Of a DNA stretch of 64,000 nucleotides, positions 3,192-13,831 are shown piece after piece; positions within the stretch are counted from its first letter, which is position 1, and the number at the start of each line of letters is the position of its first letter. The stretch is from Photorhabdus noenieputensis (GTDB taxonomy: Bacteria; Pseudomonadota; Gammaproteobacteria; Enterobacterales; Enterobacteriaceae). Where the stretch lies: the NCBI RefSeq assembly GCF_018448935.1, contig NZ_RCWC01000033.1, positions 1 through 64,000 on the forward strand. The letters run 5' to 3'. The notes below the pieces were generated by a model. The model did no database searches. It worked only from the letters and a program-made list of their open reading frames with translations, and was not told the DNA's origin. The translations under genes and the position numbers were made by a program.

Positions 3192-4691
3192 ATGAAACGT
3201 ATTTTTTTGATTGTCTGTTTTTTAGCAGCTTTAATTGTTGCAATTATTCAGGGTATCGGTTTGGTACTTCCTGATAAAGTCCCTGTTGAATATTTCAAAG
3301 AAAGTGGATTTAAGAATGTGATGAGAACACTCGGTGTTATTGCCGCGGAACCTCATCCTGCGGCTTCAACACGGCAAGCGTTAGTTCGGGATTACCTGAT
3401 TAACGAAATGAATGATATGGGATATAGCGTCACTGAACAGACATTTCATTACAAGGCGGATGATTTAGCCTCTCGACAGAAGAGAATATATTCAGGCTTC
3501 AGTAGTCAACAACGTCGAGCTTTTGATAAAGAGTTTGCCAGGGTAAATACAGGCAACTTTGCAAAACAAGTGGCGGATCAATCAGAATTAACCGGAACGA
3601 ATCTTATCGCAAAGTTGGAGGTTCCTTCGCCAAAAGGAACTTTATTATTCGTTTCGCATTATGACAGTGTTAGGACTGCGCCAGGAGCCAGTGATAATGG
3701 TATGGCCGTCGCTTCGGTACTCCAGTTAATGCGGGATCTTGCTGAAAGAACGGATATAAAAAACAACGTTATATTCTTATTCTCTGATGCTGAAGAGTTG
3801 GGATTACTCGGTGCGTATCACTTTGTTAAGAATATTAATGAGATCGCTACTCAACCAATAGATGTTGTTTTTAATTTTGATGCTCGGGGAAATAATGGCG
3901 TGCCACTGTTATTTGAGACATCAGCAAAAAATCTTGCTCTTATTGCAGAATGGAATCGGAGCGCTTATAAGCCAGTAGCTTTTTCATTTAGTCCCATTGT
4001 GTACCGAATGTTGCAGAATAACACAGATTTTAGCGTCTTTCTGGATCGAGGGTTTACTGGGATGAATTTTGCTACGATCTTGGGTTACGAGCATTACCAC
4101 CGTATGAGTGATACTGTTGAGAATCTTAGCCTCGGAACTTTGTGGCGATATCAGCGAACGGTTCGGGATTTGGGAGCGCATTTTGTAGTAAAAGATGAGA
4201 TTAACCTGTTTAAAGAAAGTGTAGATGCAGTTTATTTTCCTGTTCCCTATATTGGGCTTATTATCATGTCTGTATTTGCCGCTTTCGCTACAGGTATTTT
4301 AACATTTTTACTCTCTATCTCATTAGCGATAAGAAATATATGGTTTTCATCTTCACCCCGAACGGTATCAAATATCCAGAGCATTTTAAGGATACTCGCT
4401 GGATTATTTAGCCTTATCGCAGCATTAATTGTACCTACTGCATCTTATCTTATTACGTTACCTGTTTTGTTGTTTTTATTAACGGATTTGATGTTGCGGG
4501 AGTTCAATAAATTTAGCGTTGCATTGATTTTATTAATTATCTGTACCTACATTACATCTATTCTCTATGTTCCAATTATATACCTTGTTGCTATCGGATT
4601 ACATGCTCCGATAGTGGGTAGTATTATCGCTCTTCTGCCAATACTTATTTTAGGATCTGGTATAGTCGGTTTTTGGAAACGAATAGCTTAA
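3192..4691 (+). CDS. Membrane-anchored M28-family zinc aminopeptidase
   Basis: 499 residues. An N-terminal membrane anchor (about 4-26) is followed by a PA-less M28 peptidase domain (about 38-335) and then four or more hydrophobic segments (about 345-495). The di-zinc ligands and base are all visible: His156 (SHYDS), Asp168 (ASDNG), Glu201/Glu202 (SDAEELG), Asp230 (FNFDARG) and His303 (YHRMSDT). This architecture resembles bacterial M28 proteins with a polytopic tail, in which the catalytic domain faces the periplasm. Substrate unknown. It precedes the candidate azoxy cluster by 660 bases of AT-rich DNA on the same strand; whether it belongs to it (for example removing an aminoacyl group) cannot be said. 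Start supported by GGGAGA 8 bases upstream. Confidence 0.85.
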   Translation: MKRIFLIVCFLAALIVAIIQGIGLVLPDKVPVEYFKESGFKNVMRTLGVIAAEPHPAASTRQALVRDYLINEMNDMGYSVTEQTFHYKADDLASRQKRIYSGFSSQQRRAFDKEFARVNTGNFAKQVADQSELTGTNLIAKLEVPSPKGTLLFVSHYDSVRTAPGASDNGMAVASVLQLMRDLAERTDIKNNVIFLFSDAEELGLLGAYHFVKNINEIATQPIDVVFNFDARGNNGVPLLFETSAKNLALIAEWNRSAYKPVAFSFSPIVYRMLQNNTDFSVFLDRGFTGMNFATILGYEHYHRMSDTVENLSLGTLWRYQRTVRDLGAHFVVKDEINLFKESVDAVYFPVPYIGLIIMSVFAAFATGILTFLLSISLAIRNIWFSSSPRTVSNIQSILRILAGLFSLIAALIVPTASYLITLPVLLFLLTDLMLREFNKFSVALILLIICTYITSILYVPIIYLVAIGLHAPIVGSIIALLPILILGSGIVGFWKRIA

Positions 4692-5355
4692 TTATATACA
4701 ATTAGTCTTTATAATTAAAACTAATATAAAACCAGTCGTAGAATAAAAGAATAGAATGGCTGGTTAATTTCATTAATTAAATAGTGGTAATGATATAATT
4801 CATGGATATTAATAATATCGCCATGTAAAATATATATAAAAATAATATAAACGAATTTATGAAAATAATGTTGGGAAATGATTTTTTGAATTGATTCATA
4901 AATAAATTTCATTTTTCTTATTTATTCTTTAAACTAAGATTATCTCTTTCTGCTATTAACTGTTTGTTTTATATGTTTATAGCTTTATGTCAATATTGTT
5001 TCATGTAAATTCAATACATTTAAAATTGATATTTTATTATTAACTTATCACTTATTTATTAATATTTAAATGGTATGATTTATATTTGAAACTAAATTTT
5101 TCTAATGTGTAAAATAATTTTTCCAGAAAATAATTTGTAAAATAATATATGTTCCTTGATTTATCCATAGCCTGTTACTAAGAAAGTATAAGGGGGATTT
5201 TATATTGGTTAATAACAAATTAGAAAATCACTAATAGCTCGGCGAGATGGACAACTATTTGACATCTATCGCATATTAAAACATAAAATTTTTTTGCGGA
5301 TTTATCGCTAATGCCAGTCACTGGAGCGTGATGTAGTTGTTGAGAGCATATAGAT
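4692..5355. other. AT-rich spacer before the candidate azoxy cluster
   Basis: No supported gene. The only open frames are short, low-complexity, AT-driven peptides on the minus strand. The region probably holds the promoter of the 5356-12289 gene group, but I see no clear -35/-10 pair or operator. Confidence 0.5.
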
Positions 5356-6192
5356 ATGAAAAATAATATTAACGGTAATCATTTTAAAGTGGCTGGTAAT
5401 TTTCTCTGTAATTATAAAGTTTATCAGGGAAATAGTCATGGCAGAGTTATTATATTGTTACCTGCTATTGGGGTGGAAATCAGGAAATATGAAACTCTAA
5501 TACAGCAACTGGTAAACGAGGGTTTTCAGGTTGTTACTGCTGATATGCCAGGCTATGGAGACAGTCAACCTAAACCAAGTCGAGAAAATGACTATAACTA
5601 TTCCGATCTGTTGCGGGATTATCTGCCGGCAATGCTAGACAAGGCTGTTGAATTAAATAGCAATGAAATTCCTATTGTCTTTGGTCACAGTCTTGGCGGG
5701 CATATTGCGACACTCTTTGCCTGCTCAACTGACAGACCATTTTCTCTGTTTTGTGTGGCAACTGGGAACGTGTGGTATAAGAATTGGCAAGGAATGGGGA
5801 GGGTACAGATAATAACAGCAGCGATTATTTTTAATGTTTTGACTGCGTTATATGGTTATCTCCCTGGGAAAAAGATTGGTTTTGGTATAAGAGAAGCTAA
5901 GGGATTAATGCGGGATTGGGCCAGAACTGCTTGTACGGGAAATTATCATCATGTCCGTGCTTATAAGGGTAAGGAGAATAAAAATTTATCTAAGGCTGTT
6001 TATATCTGTTTTAAAGGAGATGATTGGGCTCCGTTGAAGTCCACTCAAGTATTAGCAAGTCTTATACCTAACGCAGAAGTTAGGGAAATAACTTTATCTT
6101 TCAAAGGTAATCCTCATAGCGCCTGGATTAAACAGCCAGGAGATGTTATTGCAATCATGAAAAGAGAAATAATGGAGAATAGCGATGATTAA
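5356..6192 (+). CDS. Alpha/beta hydrolase, first gene of the candidate azoxy cluster
   Basis: 278 residues with a complete alpha/beta-hydrolase triad: nucleophile Ser112 in GHSLGGH, acid Asp222 or Asp223 (FKGDDWAP) and His254 (GNPHSAW). The strand-turn VTADMPGYGDSQPKP is the usual oxyanion-side loop. The fold is that of serine hydrolases acting on esters, amides or lipids; the substrate cannot be read from sequence. Its last 8 bases overlap the next gene, so the two are translated together. In the context of a pathway that passes through an aminoacyl ester and a fatty chain, roles in ester hydrolysis, proofreading or self-protection are possible. Ribosome site is weak (GAGAGC). Confidence 0.75.
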   Translation: MKNNINGNHFKVAGNFLCNYKVYQGNSHGRVIILLPAIGVEIRKYETLIQQLVNEGFQVVTADMPGYGDSQPKPSRENDYNYSDLLRDYLPAMLDKAVELNSNEIPIVFGHSLGGHIATLFACSTDRPFSLFCVATGNVWYKNWQGMGRVQIITAAIIFNVLTALYGYLPGKKIGFGIREAKGLMRDWARTACTGNYHHVRAYKGKENKNLSKAVYICFKGDDWAPLKSTQVLASLIPNAEVREITLSFKGNPHSAWIKQPGDVIAIMKREIMENSDD

Positions 6193-6568
6193 TACATTGA
6201 AAATTCTGCGTTGGGAGTTTCTAGGATTGTTTTTTATCAGTTTATTTCTGACCTGGCAGCTTGAAAGTTATATAAATTGGTGGCAATTTATTTTGTTATT
6301 TTTTCTGATTGATATTATTGGTTATTACCCAGGGCGGATCTGGAGTTTGCTAAATAAAAAAGAAACTCCTCCTTCAGCTTTTTATACCATTTATAATATT
6401 TGCCACAATGTATTCACACTCAGTGTGATTAGTTTGCTTTGGATCTGGTTCTTTAAGGACAATTACAGTGTGATTGCACTCTTTGTCCATATCTGCCTGG
6501 ATCGTGGTGTACTGGGAAATTTTCCTAAGTTATCTATTAATATATTTAAGCAACCCACTGTTCATTGA
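6185..6568 (+). CDS. Small integral membrane protein, VlmO-like candidate
   Basis: 127 residues with about three or four hydrophobic helices (about 10-26, 32-48, 66-88, 93-107) and polar patches around GYYPGRIW and CLDRGVLGNFPK. I do not recognise the family from sequence alone. Reason for the tentative call: it sits directly before a ferritin-like diiron gene, and in valanimycin biosynthesis a membrane protein (VlmO) works with the diiron protein VlmB at the N-N bond/azoxy stage. Conserved-looking polar residues within or next to the helices (His74, Asn75, Asp100, Arg101) would be candidates for catalysis. It overlaps the hydrolase gene and has GGAG seven bases before its ATG. Confidence 0.55.
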   Translation: MINTLKILRWEFLGLFFISLFLTWQLESYINWWQFILLFFLIDIIGYYPGRIWSLLNKKETPPSAFYTIYNICHNVFTLSVISLLWIWFFKDNYSVIALFVHICLDRGVLGNFPKLSINIFKQPTVH

Positions 6569-6615
6569 AATAGATCATTGTAGAGAGATAACTTACTTAG
6601 AGAGGCATTTATATT

Positions 6616-7512
6616 ATGAGTTTAATTAAACAGGCATCAGAAATAGAGATGCAGGCAAAAGATTGGGGCTTGGATGAATGGTTTACTGAGCAGATAAATG
6701 TTGAACAAAGAAAAAGAACCGATTATGCCAATGATCCTAAATTAACCTATTTGCCGGGCGATTTACGGGAGTCTCTGATCAGGGAACTCTCTTTTAAATC
6801 GATTTCGGAATATGAAGCAACGAAAGCATTATTGTTACTCGCAGATAAGGCACCTGACAATATCAACTTCGACTATATGTTGACTCAGATATTTGATGAA
6901 GGTAGACATGCTAAATTATTCAGAGAACATCTGGTCAGAATAGGCTTTGCGGATATCGACAATGTGGCTGGAAAGATGGAAAGCCTCTTACGAGGAAAAA
7001 TGACCAATATGTTGGAGACATTGAGAACCTATTTTGATAAGTGGGTGGTGTTGAGAAATGATTATATTGCAGGCGTGCTAATCATTACTGTCGTGCTAGA
7101 AGGCGTGCTTGCACCAACTTCTGAGCTTAGTGAGATCAAGTGGCGACCTTTTGATATTGCGGCGGCTGAGACCCAGGCCAGAGCTAATGCTGATGAATTA
7201 AGACATCTGACGGTGTGTGCAAATATCGTCAAGATGGCGCTCGAAAATGATAGTTCTCTAAAGCCATCGGCTCTTGAGTGTATAGAAGAAGGATTGGCGT
7301 TATGGAACCAAGTATCTGTTGATGATTTGTTTGTAGAGCGTGAAATGTTCTATCAACGGGGTATGCAGAACCATTTGCGCTTGATTGAAGGTTATGAATT
7401 GGTGCCTGGGATGTTGTTGTCCGATTCTACGGTGGAGTCTCGCCTTGAACTATCTCATTCCTTAGTTGAACAGATGCAGCAGTCACGCCTTAAATATATG
7501 GGCTTAGCGTAG
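6616..7512 (+). CDS. Ferritin-like diiron oxygenase, VlmB-like
   Basis: 298 residues, mainly helical. It has the ligand pattern of a four-helix-bundle diiron oxygenase: Glu67 (SEYEATKA), Glu95 and His98 (DEGRH), Glu162 (VVLEGV), and Glu194 and His197 (DELRH). These two E-x-x-H motifs on separate helices plus two lone Glu residues are what AurF-, ribonucleotide-reductase-like and VlmB-type enzymes carry. In the valanimycin pathway the diiron protein VlmB is needed to oxidise the N-N intermediate to the azoxy product; by context I assign the same step here. Soluble, no signal peptide. It lies between the small membrane protein and a flavoprotein of the ACAD fold on one strand. Other diiron N-oxygenases are the alternative. 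Confidence 0.75.
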   Translation: MSLIKQASEIEMQAKDWGLDEWFTEQINVEQRKRTDYANDPKLTYLPGDLRESLIRELSFKSISEYEATKALLLLADKAPDNINFDYMLTQIFDEGRHAKLFREHLVRIGFADIDNVAGKMESLLRGKMTNMLETLRTYFDKWVVLRNDYIAGVLIITVVLEGVLAPTSELSEIKWRPFDIAAAETQARANADELRHLTVCANIVKMALENDSSLKPSALECIEEGLALWNQVSVDDLFVEREMFYQRGMQNHLRLIEGYELVPGMLLSDSTVESRLELSHSLVEQMQQSRLKYMGLA

Positions 7513-7562
7513 ATATTGGCCTTATTCAGCAGGTTGTTTGAATAGGCTAAGGAGAATTAAAA

Positions 7563-8609
7563 ATGACAAATATTGTTGAAGAACTCAGGAAGAATAGTGG
7601 GAAATACCAACATTTGACACCAGATAGATTGAAAAGATTGTTATTAGGTTCTGAGGCCGCCTCACAATGCCTGCGTTTGATGGCTCAATCCAGTATGGAT
7701 GGGCTTTATCAAGTGGGTAATACTATCCGTGAAGCTTCTGCGTGGCTTCCCGCTGTTGGGATTGCCTTAACAATGCATAATCATATTGTACTGGCTTGCA
7801 GTAAATTTCCTGACATATTCGAAGACAGCAACGTATTATTGAATGAAGTGATGGCATCAAAAGCGTTGGTTGCTTCTGCTTTTGCTGAGGGGCTACCTGG
7901 AACGAATATTTTTACACCATCACTTAAAATGCATGCAAAAGGGGGAACGCTGTTTGTTAATGGTTCGAAGAAGCCTTGTTCTCTATCTTCGATTGCCGAC
8001 TATTATGTGTTATCAGTCAGCGATACTGATCATGATAATGAGATGAGAGTCGTGCTGATTTCTAAATCGGCGCAGAATCTTAAGGTTATTCCTTTTTGGA
8101 AATTGGGAATTTTAACTGAAAGTGATAATCAAGAAATCAAATTTTTGGATGCCGAAGTATCACCTAAACGACTTTCTCATTATAAGGGAATTGAACAACA
8201 GATGGTGCTTTCCTACGGTTTATCACTATTTAATTATTTTGCTGCAAATGCTTATTCTGGAATTCTTGATGGGCTTACTCACTTTATTCCTGAGAAAGTA
8301 GTAGAACAGCAGCCCATTAAATATAATCTGACTCAAGCTAATTATAAAATTAATGTTATTCTCGATCAGATGTTGATCATTGCCTTTTATGCTAGCCAGG
8401 ATGAAAATGCCGTCCATAAGATTCTCGCGTTACGTTATACCTTGGAAAAGATCCTTGAGGAAACTGCCAGTTTCATATTCCGATGTTGTGGTGGGATTAA
8501 AGTAATGACAACACCAGAAATTATGAATTTCTATTTGGCAGTACAGTTATTCAAATTTCATCCGATAGGAGAATTCCAAATGATTAACCAGATCATGCAA
8601 CAAGATTAA
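7563..8609 (+). CDS. Acyl-CoA-dehydrogenase-fold flavoprotein, likely amine N-hydroxylase
   Basis: 348 residues, somewhat shorter than true acyl-CoA dehydrogenases (about 380). Helical N-domain (about 1-115), beta-domain (about 116-215; SAFAEGLPGTNI corresponds to the flavin-side loop) and C-terminal helical domain with FRCCGG (about 300), near the position where the family has a GG turn. The catalytic Glu of dehydrogenases is not evident. VlmH, the two-component isobutylamine N-hydroxylase of valanimycin, is of this fold and uses reduced flavin from a separate reductase. With an amine-forming enzyme encoded next, N-hydroxylation of a long-chain amine is the best inference. No flavin reductase gene is nearby; a general Fre-type enzyme would have to serve. 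Confidence 0.7.
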   Translation: MTNIVEELRKNSGKYQHLTPDRLKRLLLGSEAASQCLRLMAQSSMDGLYQVGNTIREASAWLPAVGIALTMHNHIVLACSKFPDIFEDSNVLLNEVMASKALVASAFAEGLPGTNIFTPSLKMHAKGGTLFVNGSKKPCSLSSIADYYVLSVSDTDHDNEMRVVLISKSAQNLKVIPFWKLGILTESDNQEIKFLDAEVSPKRLSHYKGIEQQMVLSYGLSLFNYFAANAYSGILDGLTHFIPEKVVEQQPIKYNLTQANYKINVILDQMLIIAFYASQDENAVHKILALRYTLEKILEETASFIFRCCGGIKVMTTPEIMNFYLAVQLFKFHPIGEFQMINQIMQQD

Positions 8610-8700
8610 TTACTTTTTAGAATCACCTATTTATAACTCAAGGACTTTTCCGTGCTGTTTACAGCATGATTTTGTGCACCTAAAAAAAAGAGAGAAAACT

Positions 8701-11268
8701 ATGTTTGTTAATCAATATCGTGAGAATTTATTAAACTCTGTGGGCCTTGAACTGGACATTAAGTCTGCTCAAGATAACCGGCTTACATTATCGGACGGCC
8801 GGGTTGTTAAGGATTTTTTGGCTCAATATGGTGCACTGCCATTTGGGCATAACCCTGATTTCGCTATCGCTGAAATTAATAGATTCACTGAAAATAAAGA
8901 GCCTATCTTCTTTCAGCCTAATATTCACAAAAAGGTACGGCTATTAGCTGAAATGCTTGCAGAGCAAATAGATAAGGAAAAATATACCCACTGTACTTTT
9001 ACTAACAGTGGTGCTGAAACAGTAGAAGCTGCGATTAAATTTACCCGTCTGTTTACTGGCAGAAAGCGTATTCTGAGTTTGCATCGCAGTTTTCACGGTA
9101 AAACCTATTCGGCATTATCCGCTACGGGATCACATCGGTTTAAAGCCGATTTCATTTACGATGATAAATTATATGAGCAGGTTGATAGTGAAGATTTGGA
9201 TGAAATAAAAAGAAAACTGGAGAGCCGGGAATTTGCCGCATTTATCATTGAACCGGTGCAGGGAGAAGGTGGAATGAAAGTCATTCCACCAGATACGTTG
9301 TCCAGTATTTTGGCACTGTGTAAAAAAAATGGCACATTGTCAGTATTTGATGAAGTTCAGACGGGTATCGGTAGGCTTGGGGCATTCTGTGCGGCCACAC
9401 TCTACGCTTTGAAACCGGATGTGATCCTGTTTTCCAAGGCGTTAGGGGCCGGTATCTCGCCGATTGGTGCGATGTTGTATTCAGAGGAGCTTTATTTATC
9501 CGAGTTCGATAGGAAACATAGCTCTACTTTTGCCAATAACGTCTTGGCCGCAACGATGGGAATTGCTGTTATTGAGCATCTGACTAAAGATGACGGTAAG
9601 GCGTTAACCCATGTTCAAGAAGTCAGCCATTATGTTGATGAATGTCTTGAACAGTTGTCTGCTAAATACCCGAAGCATTTTTACTGGCAAGGAACTGGGT
9701 TGATGCGTGGTCTTGAAATACAGGACAGCAAAGCGGCTTCCAATATCTTTATCAATTTCAGTCAAAGAAGCGGTGGTCTGGCTTATATCATTTGTAGTTT
9801 CTTATTGAAATATTATGGCCTTTTCACCATGCCGTTAATGTCTCGCCCTTGTTCTGTACGTTTTGAACCACCGCTTAACGTTTCCAAAGAGGATATTAAG
9901 ACGTTTTTCACGGCTTTTGATGAGGTATGTCAACTGGTTCAGAATGGACGATATGACATTCTTTTCTCACACTTGATAGACATACCTGTTGCGAATCTCC
10001 CTCCATCTTCGGTGAGTTACCCAATTTCAAGGAACAATAATATTGCTCGGATTAAAGCGCCTATCTCTGGATTGGTGGAGGGTAAGAAATTCGCTTTCTT
10101 GATGCATACTACTTCGGTCAATGAGCTTGCTCACACTTATTGCCTGTCAATAAAGGAGAATTACACACTGGAGCAGCAGAAACAGCTCAGTGACTGGATC
10201 ATGCAGGTTTCCTCGATTGATTTTAATCCTGATGTCGCTATTGAATTTGGTGTTGAAAGTTCAGCGGCATATGCCAATGGTATGCTCCTTTTCTCACCTA
10301 TCAGTCCCGAAGATATGATGGCATTATCAGCGAAAGAAAGAGCGGTATTGATGAAGGAGTATCTTGATGTGGCAGAGAGAAATGGCGCTGAAATCGTCGG
10401 CTTAGGTGCTTATACCTCGGTTATTACTAACGGTGGTAATAGCTTGGTGAATAATCGGCAAGGCCGGATATTGACTAATGGCAACTCTCTGACAGCGGTG
10501 GCGGTGATTGAGGGGATACGCTCAATGTTGACGGAAAATGCATCCCGGCAAACATTGGCGGTAGTGGGTGCCAGAGGCTCCGTAGGCAGGCTTTCAGTCA
10601 CTGGCTTAGCGCATAACTTTGGCCGGATTATCTTGGTTAGTCGTCCTAATAAAGCGCGCGTATTGCTCTCTGAACTGACCAAAGCGCTTCTCTCCGCGGT
10701 GTTAAGAACGCATGATGTTATTCAGCCAGATTCGGTTATGGATAAGATGAGAAAATGGCTTTTCAAACAAAATCCGGGGGTGACAGATGCACAAGTATTA
10801 CATCAGCAAGTTCTTGAGGTCGTTGGTACCTTTGGTTTGGAAGCAATAGAGAGTTATGAGCACTCCTTGAGTCAGGCGGATTTTATCGTTTCGGCAACGA
10901 GTGAAGGTAAGCCTTTCTTGAATACGCATTACTTGAAAGATTCCGCTATCGTTTTTGATGCGGCCAGACCTTTTGATTTCATTCGGGATGGCAATCGTCA
11001 AATTTACGAGGGAGGATTGGTCTATCAGCCTGAAAAAGTGACTTACAGTGATTGCAACGTGATCGATGTACCTGCGGGGGTAAACCTTGCCTGTTTATCA
11101 GAAACGATCGCTGTGGCGCTTGAAGGGGTGAGTGTTCATCAAAGCATCGGTAAATCTATTGATTACAATGATGCATTGGCGATTCGGGATATCGCCAGAA
11201 AGCATGGGTTCATCCCTGTCCAGTATTCCCGAAATAATCAAGGTGAGCGTTATGAGCATGTTGCTTGA
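8701..11268 (+). CDS. Fusion of class III aminotransferase and long-chain acyl-ACP reductase
   Basis: 855 residues from the ATG at 8701 (ribosome site AAAGAGAG); a GTG at 8674 would add nine residues. Residues 1-430 are a class III PLP aminotransferase: TNSGAETVEAAIKF, IEPVQGEGGM, FDEVQTGIGR and PLP lysine Lys246 (FSKALGAG). Residues about 450-855 match the acyl-ACP reductase (AAR) family of cyanobacterial alkane synthesis: GLGAYTSV, TNGNSLTAV, a dinucleotide loop near 619 (VVGARGSVG) and Cys798 in ACLSETIAVALEG, the expected acyl-enzyme cysteine. The predicted job is acyl-ACP to fatty aldehyde, then transamination to the alkylamine without releasing the aldehyde. The next gene overlaps its end by 17 bases. 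I know of no described protein with this exact fusion. Confidence 0.85.
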   Translation: MFVNQYRENLLNSVGLELDIKSAQDNRLTLSDGRVVKDFLAQYGALPFGHNPDFAIAEINRFTENKEPIFFQPNIHKKVRLLAEMLAEQIDKEKYTHCTFTNSGAETVEAAIKFTRLFTGRKRILSLHRSFHGKTYSALSATGSHRFKADFIYDDKLYEQVDSEDLDEIKRKLESREFAAFIIEPVQGEGGMKVIPPDTLSSILALCKKNGTLSVFDEVQTGIGRLGAFCAATLYALKPDVILFSKALGAGISPIGAMLYSEELYLSEFDRKHSSTFANNVLAATMGIAVIEHLTKDDGKALTHVQEVSHYVDECLEQLSAKYPKHFYWQGTGLMRGLEIQDSKAASNIFINFSQRSGGLAYIICSFLLKYYGLFTMPLMSRPCSVRFEPPLNVSKEDIKTFFTAFDEVCQLVQNGRYDILFSHLIDIPVANLPPSSVSYPISRNNNIARIKAPISGLVEGKKFAFLMHTTSVNELAHTYCLSIKENYTLEQQKQLSDWIMQVSSIDFNPDVAIEFGVESSAAYANGMLLFSPISPEDMMALSAKERAVLMKEYLDVAERNGAEIVGLGAYTSVITNGGNSLVNNRQGRILTNGNSLTAVAVIEGIRSMLTENASRQTLAVVGARGSVGRLSVTGLAHNFGRIILVSRPNKARVLLSELTKALLSAVLRTHDVIQPDSVMDKMRKWLFKQNPGVTDAQVLHQQVLEVVGTFGLEAIESYEHSLSQADFIVSATSEGKPFLNTHYLKDSAIVFDAARPFDFIRDGNRQIYEGGLVYQPEKVTYSDCNVIDVPAGVNLACLSETIAVALEGVSVHQSIGKSIDYNDALAIRDIARKHGFIPVQYSRNNQGERYEHVA

Positions 11269-12289
11269 TGCTCCTCAGATTATTGCCACCGGGAACGCTC
11301 AGGATGTTCTTGGCAACAGTCATCTCAGAAAAATGCTTTGTTATGCAAAGCACCCATTGAGTAGCCTGTTGTTCAATAGTGAAACATATTGGTTTACTAA
11401 TCAAAAGGGGGCTATTGGTTTCTTTCAGGACAAAAATCTGCATATGTGTGTAGGCGGTATTTTGGCTCCTGGCGAAGAACGAGCTGCACTTTTGCACTCT
11501 TTTCTCAACTTCACCAGAGAAAAGCGGGCTTTCCCGGTTTTTCTGCACGGTGATGAGAGCGATTTTGTATTGTTGAAAAATAATGGCTTTTCTGTGAATC
11601 AGCTTGGAGCGAGTTATTCATTGAGTCTTGATGGATATGATATGAAAGGCAAACGGTTTCAACAGCTTAGAAATAAAATCAGTAAATCCAGAAGAACGGG
11701 GATTTCCGTTCGAGAGATCTGCTCGCAAGAGGAATATTATCGATTTAAACCACAACTAGAACATATTAATCAGCTTTGGTTGAAAGAAAAACACGCGAAA
11801 GCCCTGAAAAAATTGGTGATTGATTTCAACACCGTAGAAGTGAGTTCAGGCGAGCATAGAGTCTATATTGCAACACAGGGAGAACAAATTCAGGCATATA
11901 TTGTTTACAGTTACACTTGGGGGGAGACATCGGGATGGTTTCATAACCTATCTCGAAAAAAACCGGATATACCCGACGGCACTATGCAATTTATTAATGA
12001 AACTGCGATTAATGACTTCCTGAAAGAGGGCGTAGTTTCCTACCTTCATTTGGGCTTCACCCCTTTGGTGGAATTCGGTGAGGAGGGATATATTAATGAC
12101 TCAGCAATCTTTTATAAAGTTGCTAAGTGGTTGTCATCAAAAGGCGGCATTGTTTATCCTGCTGCTTCGCAACGTCAATATAAAATGAGCTGGCGGCCGT
12201 CGTTGATTGAACCGGAATATATTGCTTTCCCCAGAGGAAAGGCCATGAAAGCATTATGGTCAACATTGCGAACGACTAATAGTATCTAA
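11252..12289 (+). CDS. Aminoacyl-tRNA-dependent transferase of the LPG-synthase/DUF2156 type, VlmA-like
   Basis: 345 residues from the ATG at 11252, chosen because AAGGTGAG lies five bases before it; a longer frame from 11132 lies inside the preceding gene. It has the double-GNAT layout of the phosphatidylglycerol lysyltransferase C-domain: an N-terminal half up to about 125, then a second half with FQQLRNKISKSRRTGISVRE and SYLHLGFTPLV followed by a YPAASQRQYKMSWRP end. VlmA of valanimycin, of the same family, moves serine from seryl-tRNA onto isobutylhydroxylamine. Here the acceptor would be a long-chain alkylhydroxylamine. No dedicated seryl-tRNA synthetase (VlmL) is present, so the cellular SerRS would have to charge the tRNA. 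True lipid aminoacylation is the alternative. No membrane flippase domain is attached, unlike MprF. Confidence 0.75.
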   Translation: MSMLLDAPQIIATGNAQDVLGNSHLRKMLCYAKHPLSSLLFNSETYWFTNQKGAIGFFQDKNLHMCVGGILAPGEERAALLHSFLNFTREKRAFPVFLHGDESDFVLLKNNGFSVNQLGASYSLSLDGYDMKGKRFQQLRNKISKSRRTGISVREICSQEEYYRFKPQLEHINQLWLKEKHAKALKKLVIDFNTVEVSSGEHRVYIATQGEQIQAYIVYSYTWGETSGWFHNLSRKKPDIPDGTMQFINETAINDFLKEGVVSYLHLGFTPLVEFGEEGYINDSAIFYKVAKWLSSKGGIVYPAASQRQYKMSWRPSLIEPEYIAFPRGKAMKALWSTLRTTNSI

Positions 12290-12322
12290 GTTATAAAAAG
12301 TCTGCTTTTAATGCTAGGTAAC

Positions 12323-12362
12323 AGGTGATCAGTCGGGGCTAAAAATACCGGCCTGATCACCT
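12323..12362. terminator. Stem-loop between the azoxy cluster and lysC
   Basis: AGGTGATCAG at 12323-12332 and CTGATCACCT at 12353-12362 form a perfect 10-bp stem around a 20-base loop that can pair further (GG with CC). It lies between convergent genes and could stop transcription from both sides. No strong T run. Confidence 0.55.
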
Positions 12363-12445
12363 ATCATAGCTAATATTGCTTATTTACTGATATATTTCCA
12401 TGGTAAATCTATTTTCACTAAGCGAGGTATTAACTACCTGAAAAA

Positions 12446-13831
12446 TTATACTTGCTCAAACAAACGCTGATGAAGCGTTTGAACAATTTGTTCTGCATCT
12501 TTGCCTTGAACAAGCAAGCACAGGTTATGGTTACTGGCACCATGACTGATCATGCGGAGATTGAATCTTTCCAGCACGCTAAAAACCTTTTTTCCTAATC
12601 CGTTGGTTTGAGAAAGCTGATTACCAATAATTGCCACCAGCGCCAGATCTTCTTCCACTTCAACCCGACACAGTGTCGAAAGTTCCGTCATCAGTGCATT
12701 GGTCAGCAGGCTACCGTTTGTGCTAGTGGAGCCAGTCGTGTCGAGTGTTAATGCCACATTGACTTCGGAGGTGGTGATCAAATCCACTGAGATATTATGG
12801 CGTGACAGAATAGTAAATATTTCGGCCAAAAATCCCTGTGCGTGCAGCATTTTCAGGCTGTGTAATGTCAGTAACGTCTGTTTCTGGCGCAGGGTGATAG
12901 CGCGGAACTGTGGTGGGGCTTCGGTAGTATCACAGACTAGCGTGCCGCCGGCCTGTGGGTTTTTACTGGAACCAACAAATACTGGAATGCCACAGCGAAT
13001 AGCAGGAAACAGTGTTGCAGGATGTAGGATTTTGGCACCAAATGTTGCCATCTCCGCCGCTTCATCAAAGGCAATCTTATCAATTCGTTGGGCGGTTGGA
13101 ACAACTCGCGGGTCAGTGGTGTAAATGCCCGGAACATCTGTCCAGATATCAACGCGTTTCAGGCCAAGGGCTTCTCCTAAGAGTGCCGCAGTATAATCGC
13201 TGCCACCGCGCCCCAGTGTAGTGGTGCGACCGTTCTCTTCACACCCAATAAAACCTTGGGTGACAATCAGGGTATTTTTTAGCTGTGGTAAGAGATGTTC
13301 TGTTGCCAACGATTGAAGTTGTTCATGGTTTGGTTCTGCACGGCCAAAACTATCGTCGGTATACATCACTTTACGTATATCAAACCATTCGACATCTTTA
13401 CCACGCTGGCGAAGCAATTCGGTAAACAATCGTGTGGACATCAGTTCACCGTGGCTGACTAATTCATCTGTCAGAGCCGCAGAGGTTGCCAGAGATGCAG
13501 CTTTAGCAAGGGTTTTAATATTTTCCAGTAGATGATTAATCTCTTGACGAATCGTATCGGATTCATGCAAGCGATCAATAATTGCGTATTGAATGGTGTG
13601 AATCTGTTTCAAGTAGTCAGCCCGCTTATCTGCATTGCAGCCTTCCGCTAATGTAACTAGTAAGTTGGTTATACCGGCAGAAGCAGATAGCACAACCACG
13701 CGTACTGCTTTATTTGCCAGTACGATATCTGCACTGTTATTCATGGCATCGAAATTTGCCACGCTGGTACCACCAAATTTTGCGACTACATGCCCGCCAA
13801 TTTCTGGGCATTGGGATGAAACAGCACTCAT
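12446..13831 (-). CDS. lysC: Lysine-sensitive aspartokinase III
   Basis: 461 residues, slightly longer than E. coli LysC (449). The kinase domain begins with VVAKFGGTSVANF and contains TLGRGGSDYTAALL; two ACT domains form the C-terminal third (about 315-455), where lysine binds. It phosphorylates aspartate, the first step toward lysine, threonine and methionine. Pgi is divergent on the other side, as in E. coli. In E. coli a lysine riboswitch lies in the leader; the 298 bases between lysC and pgi show no convincing L-box sequence, so regulation at RNA level is doubtful here. Confidence 0.95.
   Translation of the reverse strand: MSAVSSQCPEIGGHVVAKFGGTSVANFDAMNNSADIVLANKAVRVVVLSASAGITNLLVTLAEGCNADKRADYLKQIHTIQYAIIDRLHESDTIRQEINHLLENIKTLAKAASLATSAALTDELVSHGELMSTRLFTELLRQRGKDVEWFDIRKVMYTDDSFGRAEPNHEQLQSLATEHLLPQLKNTLIVTQGFIGCEENGRTTTLGRGGSDYTAALLGEALGLKRVDIWTDVPGIYTTDPRVVPTAQRIDKIAFDEAAEMATFGAKILHPATLFPAIRCGIPVFVGSSKNPQAGGTLVCDTTEAPPQFRAITLRQKQTLLTLHSLKMLHAQGFLAEIFTILSRHNISVDLITTSEVNVALTLDTTGSTSTNGSLLTNALMTELSTLCRVEVEEDLALVAIIGNQLSQTNGLGKKVFSVLERFNLRMISHGASNHNLCLLVQGKDAEQIVQTLHQRLFEQV

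Follow-up and report, generated by a model that had tools for sequence, protein, structure and literature searches.

Few aliphatic azoxy natural products are known, and this rare N-N bond chemistry has been found mainly in soil actinomycetes; the Vlm-type clusters treated in the available parts of PMC9379638 and PMC11705231 come from Streptomyces and Kitasatospora. In valanimycin biosynthesis the amine is derived from valine, as isobutylamine (PMC9379638), and VlmR, a dedicated seryl-tRNA synthetase, and VlmJ/VlmK are present. In the azodyrecin (ady/azd) pathway of Streptomyces, an acyl chain is converted to an aldehyde and then to an amine, after which the same core acts (PMC9379638). The ady clusters encode a separate dehydrogenase (Ady2) and transaminase (Ady4), a VlmR-type protein (Ady10), a methyltransferase (Ady1), and a desaturase (Ady9), and late steps differ among azoxy clusters (PMC9379638). 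Alkylamine formation has also been described for PtTamH from the tambjamine YP1 pathway of Pseudoalteromonas tunicata. Together with its partner TamA, PtTamH converted a C12 acid to the C12 amine with NADH and accepted C7-C14 aldehydes; it depended on its partner acyl-ACP, and C12-CoA was not accepted (PMC9594044, available text). The related enzyme PigE has the reverse domain order and acts on a branched thioester (PMC8341465, available text). The reactions of VlmH, VlmA, VlmO, VlmB, and TamH have each been published for homologues (available parts of PMC11705231, PMC9379638, and PMC9594044).

The 64,000-nucleotide stretch of Photorhabdus noenieputensis DNA that we analyzed (contig NZ_RCWC01000033.1, referred to here as the window) belongs to a genome of 5.36 Mb and contains six ORFs at positions 5356 to 12289, all on the + strand, which we named A to F by order (Table 1). 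A overlaps B (6185/6192) and E overlaps F (11252/11268), in agreement with the initial annotation, which had described six genes on one strand, some of them overlapping. Its family calls also held: an abhydrolase, a DUF4260-like/VlmO-like membrane protein, a diiron protein, an ACAD-fold protein, a transaminase/reductase fusion, and a DUF2156 (LPG_synthase_C) protein. Judging from the sequence, we consider it very probable that A to F make up a full biosynthetic route to an aliphatic azoxy compound, with fatty acid synthesis as the origin of its alkyl half. Predicted proteins of all four types by which the Vlm azoxy family can be recognized (VlmO, VlmB, VlmA, and VlmH) are present, and one frequent part, VlmR, is missing. 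Compared with the valanimycin cluster, the Photorhabdus cluster is without VlmR, the seryl-tRNA synthetase, and VlmJ/VlmK and has E and A instead. A plasmid locus of Streptomyces sp. NBC_00212 (L016), which we assigned as a valanimycin-like set from its gene content, has VlmH, VlmA, VlmO, and VlmB homologues in common with Photorhabdus; its genes include a serine-tRNA ligase, a diacylglycerol-kinase-like gene, MmgE/PrpD, ilv genes, and a decarboxylase. The long-chain azoxy logic of azodyrecin matches that predicted for Photorhabdus, but by comparison with ady, made by description only, the Photorhabdus cluster has a single fusion enzyme and lacks tailoring genes.

TABLE 1 Predicted genes of the candidate azoxy cluster in the window
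Gene	Predicted product	Position	Strand	Evidence
A	alpha/beta hydrolase, 278 aa	5356..6192	+	Pfam Hydrolase_4, 3.2e-14; homologues in both Acinetobacter clusters
B	VlmO-type membrane N-N bond-forming enzyme (predicted), 127 aa	6185..6568	+	blastp to VlmO homologues; metal-site residues
C	VlmB-type diiron oxygenase (predicted), 298 aa	6616..7512	+	PDB 6d9f match; invariant residues
D	VlmH-type (ACAD-fold) amine N-hydroxylase (predicted), 348 aa	7563..8609	+	blastp; VlmH-only profile; tree
E	TamH-type fusion (predicted), transaminase + thioester reductase	8701..11268	+	Pfam Aminotran_3; PigE/acyl-ACP reductase matches; residues
F	VlmA-type aminoacyl-tRNA-dependent transferase (predicted), 345 aa	11252..12289	+	LPG_synthase_C; blastp; VlmA-only profile

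The start of E was placed at the ATG at 8701, later than that of the longest ORF; the GTG at 8674 sits directly past a stem-loop with a partial T tail (8651-8668), located between D and E, that could reduce transcription of E and F. For F, the ATG at 11252 was used rather than the GTG at 11132 of the longest ORF. Promoter-like sites were found at the frequency expected from shuffled sequences (25 observed versus 25.6 expected), terminator-like sites were no commoner than in shuffles (6 versus 4.9), and Rfam gave no match across positions 4000-13000 of the window. Upstream of the six genes lie iclR and an M28 peptidase gene, and downstream are lysC and pgi. The M28 peptidase gene (3192-4691), 5' of the cluster, is at the same place in only 6 of the 11 other Photorhabdus genomes.

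To place the proteins, we used as a blastp reference set four annotated Streptomyces plasmid loci out of the 11 that matched gene C. B matched the four VlmO homologues with E values of 1e-22 to 2e-17. The likely iron-binding residues of VlmO are D51, H82, H110, and D114 (PMC11705231, available text); they correspond at a constant offset of 8 to D43, H74, H102, and D106 of B, which were invariant in all 12 aligned rows. B also gave a weak Pfam match to DUF4260, as Ady6 likewise does (PMC9379638). C matched PDB 6d9f, "Putative VlmB homolog," at 4.6e-43, was 31-34% identical to 11 Streptomyces plasmid genes annotated as "VlmB-like protein," and matched the VlmB homologues of the four reference loci at 2e-56 to 2e-46. 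Conservation of the diiron ligands, anticipated in the initial annotation, is borne out by the residues of C that we presume to be ligands: E65, E95xxH98, E162, and E194xxH197 were invariant in 12 of 12 rows. We assign these Glu and His residues as putative diiron ligands from the ferritin-like pattern. VlmB has been termed heme-oxygenase-like (PMC11705231, available text) and Ady8 ferritin-like (PMC9379638); the predicted residue pattern of C fits the latter description.

D and F resemble members of larger families with other functions. D matched the VlmH homologues of the four reference loci with E values of 9e-26 to 1e-16, shared only some 27% identity with VlmH across an alignment of 290-302 residues, and is short at the N terminus; in Pfam it gave a weak Acyl-CoA_dh_M match under the cut-off. 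On a VlmH-only profile built from the four Streptomyces homologues, D reached 92.6 bits, and its two Acinetobacter counterparts described below 103.9 and 111.1, versus 38.8 for the best ACAD relative in a comparison set of ORFs of at least 300 aa from the 30 loci returned for 37 matches. Among PDB families, the D/VlmH profile was closest to the monooxygenase DszC. We then built a tree of 31 rows (5 D, 11 VlmH, and 15 ACAD), in which the ACAD rows came from 28 non-D loci after 13 were dropped, mostly long FadE types. D and VlmH rows fell together, split from the 15 ACAD rows at 100/99, with a long-branch warning. The VlmH rows formed a single group at just 74/67, and because of this support and the long-branch warning the precise position of D among the VlmH proteins is unsure. 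By-eye reading of the alignment showed that the catalytic-Glu column does not discriminate, since Glu occurs in only 5 of 15 ACAD rows; at the same column, an HP pair is present in all 16 D and VlmH rows and absent from the ACAD rows. On the profile and the tree, we rejected D as a true acyl-CoA dehydrogenase. F gave a Pfam match to LPG_synthase_C (2.2e-40) and matched the VlmA homologues of the four loci at 2e-51 to 7e-45. A VlmA-only profile scored F at 195.4 bits and the Acinetobacter F proteins at 194.9 and 184.4, versus 66.0 for a single Acinetobacter MprF. F is the sole PF09924 protein found in the genome and, at its 345 aa, is without a further domain, whereas full-length MprF has a flippase domain. 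An MprF-type lipid aminoacyltransferase was rejected for F on these two grounds, its siding with VlmA on the profile and its lack of an extra domain. The VlmO, VlmB, VlmH, and VlmA assignments proposed in the initial annotation are thus upheld by blastp, PDB 6d9f, the two profiles, and the tree; the outcome it had named as contrary, a grouping of D and F with true ACADs and lipid aminoacyltransferases, was looked for with the profiles and the D tree and was not found.

The amine would be supplied by E. Its front portion (about residues 1-420) is a class III transaminase (Pfam Aminotran_3, 9.7e-62) that matched one transaminase in the Streptomyces loci with a blastp E value of 4e-35, and its back half (about 421-855) resembles thioester (acyl-ACP) reductases. 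In profile comparison the back half matched the reductase half of PigE (4ppm, 5e-28) and a cyanobacterial acyl-ACP reductase (6jzq, 4e-23), with the reductase cysteine aligned. The residues K246, GxxGxxG (623-629), and C798 are present. E and PtTamH, likened here by layout and motifs, share domain order, GxxGxxG, and the catalytic cysteine (PMC9594044, available text); E therefore has a TamH-type layout, from which acyl-ACP-to-amine activity is predicted. This architecture strengthens the earlier proposal that the amine would come from fatty acid synthesis. PtTamH acts together with TamA and supplies a bipyrrole pathway, whereas E is encoded next to a putative azoxy core and, unlike the TamA-TamH pair, has no TamA-like gene, carrier protein, or acyl-activating gene within the six-gene cluster. 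Since C12-CoA was no substrate for PtTamH and E lacks a TamA-like neighbor, we name the acyl donor only tentatively; it is probably the cell's own acyl-ACP. A is likely a serine hydrolase, with a putative catalytic triad of S112, D222, and H254.

Pfam found no clustered VlmR-type flavin reductase among the six genes. One PF01613 flavin reductase was found elsewhere in the genome; judged by its sequence, it may resemble HpaC. Among 68 listed non-Photorhabdus loci with VlmB homologues (see below), a flavin reductase was undetected in 22, at least 1 of which is cut by a contig end. A clustered VlmR is therefore not strictly defining for Vlm-type azoxy clusters.

By analogy, we infer that the B to F proteins carry out the same reactions as their Vlm and TamH homologues, and we likewise infer the acyl-ACP source and the product. 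E would take an acyl chain from acyl-ACP onto its cysteine, convert it to the aldehyde, and transaminate the aldehyde, yielding a primary alkylamine. Using flavin reduced by an enzyme encoded outside the cluster, D would convert the alkylamine to an N-alkylhydroxylamine, and F would transfer an amino acid from tRNA to the hydroxylamine oxygen. The resulting O-aminoacyl hydroxylamine would be rearranged by B, in the membrane, to an N-N bonded hydrazine, which C would oxidize through the azo stage to an azoxy compound, roughly R-CH2-N(O)=N-CH(R')-COOH. The putative hydrolase A has no step in this scheme.

The same N-N chemistry could act on something other than a long fatty amine, such as a short or branched amine, if E took another thioester. 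Chain length, including the C6-C12 range suggested in the initial annotation, is not legible in the sequence; valanimycin is built from isobutylamine (PMC9379638), and PigE, a relative of E, works on a branched thioester (PMC8341465, available text). We nevertheless regard such an amine as unlikely: E shares its domain order with TamH, which gave a C12 amine and took C7-C14 aldehydes (PMC9594044, available text), its back half matches long-chain acyl-ACP reductases, and the cluster contains no special acyl-starter gene.

Hydrolase A travels with the set and azoxy clusters vary in their late steps (PMC9379638), and the core might therefore run to an end product that is not azoxy, halting at or proceeding from the hydrazine or azo intermediate through A or host enzymes. 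This is improbable given that C is retained with all six presumed ligands and that VlmB was demonstrated to take a hydrazine on to azoxy (PMC11705231, available text). Broad library names (LPG_synthase_C, the MprF model at 2.9e-15, and the sub-cut-off Acyl-CoA_dh_M match) could also be read as a system for lipid or membrane modification, in which F would aminoacylate a lipid like MprF and D would be a true acyl-CoA dehydrogenase. We give this reading almost no credence, as the profiles and tree place F with VlmA and D with VlmH, and it leaves the VlmO and VlmB homologues without a role.

The proposed azoxy cluster is conserved throughout the sampled genus. Gene C was found in 12 of 12 Photorhabdus genomes, at 91-98% identity in the 12 records and without inner stops. 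In all 11 of the other genomes, the tblastn alignments extended across 97% or more of every one of the six proteins, with the genes in one order. Of these 11 genomes, all have iclR beside the cluster and 8 have lysC inside the retrieved region. The intact C in 12 of 12 genomes, together with the near full-length alignment of the six genes in the 11 others, led us to reject the idea that the cluster is decayed or patchy. Comparison of the window with one congener gave dN/dS values of 0.17 (A), 0.05 (B), 0.04 (C), 0.11 (D), 0.07 (E), and 0.08 (F), with 0.05 for iclR; the six genes are under purifying selection. A comparison of metabolites with a natural strain lacking the cluster, as proposed earlier, has no candidate, since all 12 genus genomes searched carry C.

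Outside the genus, gene C or its profile was detected in 2 of 149 genomes of a family sample (both Photorhabdus), in 1 of 369 of a class sample (the window's own), in 1 of 398 of a phylum sample (again the window's own), and in 12 of 195 relatives (all Photorhabdus). Other sampled genera of the family gave no VlmB homologue. Wide spread near Photorhabdus was rejected from these four samples; absence from a sample is not proof, because the class sample missed the Acinetobacter clusters found later.

Among the papers listed, searches of the open-access literature found no azoxy cluster for Photorhabdus, Xenorhabdus, Acinetobacter, or Gammaproteobacteria, which agrees with the earlier statement that no such cluster was known from Photorhabdus-type bacteria, and did not find a Vlm core combined with a TamH-type fusion in Gram-negative bacteria. 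In the available text of PMC10974133 and PMC12186527, the only azoxy mention is the fungicide azoxystrobin, and the available main text of PMC9594044 has 0 occurrences of Photorhabdus. antiSMASH 8 gained a rule for azoxy compounds (PMC12230676, available text), so the region may already be marked in some annotations. The class of biochemistry is itself known; judging from these searches, the features that appear new are the fusion enzyme that would form the amine, the hydrolase conserved with the set, and the occurrence throughout the sampled members of a Gram-negative genus. A compact six-gene version is present in 12 of 12 genus genomes searched, between housekeeping genes, and this conservation hints at a basic role rather than a strain-specific antibiotic. 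Photorhabdus lives with nematodes and kills insects. We lean slightly toward the view that a fatty-amine-derived azoxy compound is a core trait across Photorhabdus, made by a TamH-type fusion wired to a Vlm core in a Gram-negative type of its own shared with a few Acinetobacter, and that it may be a signal or defense factor in the insect-nematode cycle. The small VlmO homologue (127 aa) and the fusion amine source offer material for the study of membrane N-N bond formation.

A scan of genome contigs confirmed 165 of 244 stretches, of which 80 were kept: 12 from Photorhabdus, one from Acinetobacter rudis, one from an Acidobacteriota metagenome-assembled genome (MAG), and 66 from Actinomycetota (counted by name). 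The 68 non-Photorhabdus loci among these 80 were compared by tblastn at an E value of 1e-4. VlmO homologues were found in 67, in each case beside VlmB, VlmH homologues in 62, and VlmA homologues in 56; 46 showed a flavin reductase, 53 an aldehyde dehydrogenase resembling the one in locus L015, and 7 an A-like hydrolase. A. rudis is tallied without D, E, and A solely because a contig end truncates its locus. The reductase half of E was detected in 0 of the 66 listed actinomycete loci within the stretch examined at this threshold. The single TamH-type reductase among the 68 is in the Acidobacteriota MAG, in frame with a transaminase. This locus (L048, 2403-9897) encodes VlmO, VlmH, and VlmB homologues, with the TamH-type fusion on the opposite strand; no VlmA homologue was detected within its 18.9 kb, and the aminoacyl step may be done another way or be encoded further off.

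In Acinetobacter, the cluster was found in 2 of 149 genomes, that of A. rudis and a second one, G1004. Both contain all of A to F, and the A. rudis proteins are 38-49% identical to those of the window. The presence of this six-gene set in Photorhabdus and in two Acinetobacter genomes indicates that A to F stay together as a unit in two distant genera. The Acinetobacter clusters carry an extra HD-domain protein, a 171 aa protein, and an iron alcohol dehydrogenase (FeADH), and the Photorhabdus cluster does not. The order of the G1004 operon is HD protein-A-B-C-171 aa protein-FeADH-D-E-F-flavin reductase; A. rudis has the same genes minus the flavin reductase, at two contig ends, with A cut by a contig end. 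The 171 aa protein (L124, 8306-8821), inside the azoxy operon of G1004 and also in A. rudis, is without a Pfam or NCBIfam match. The HD protein (L124, 10917-11687), likewise also in A. rudis, is related to cyanamide hydratases (TIGR03401, below the cut-off). Among the actinomycetes, the seven azoxy loci with an A-related hydrolase are L059, L072-L074, L076, L085, and L103, none of which showed a VlmR-type flavin reductase; three of them (L059, L076, and L103) have the hydrolase gene immediately after VlmB.
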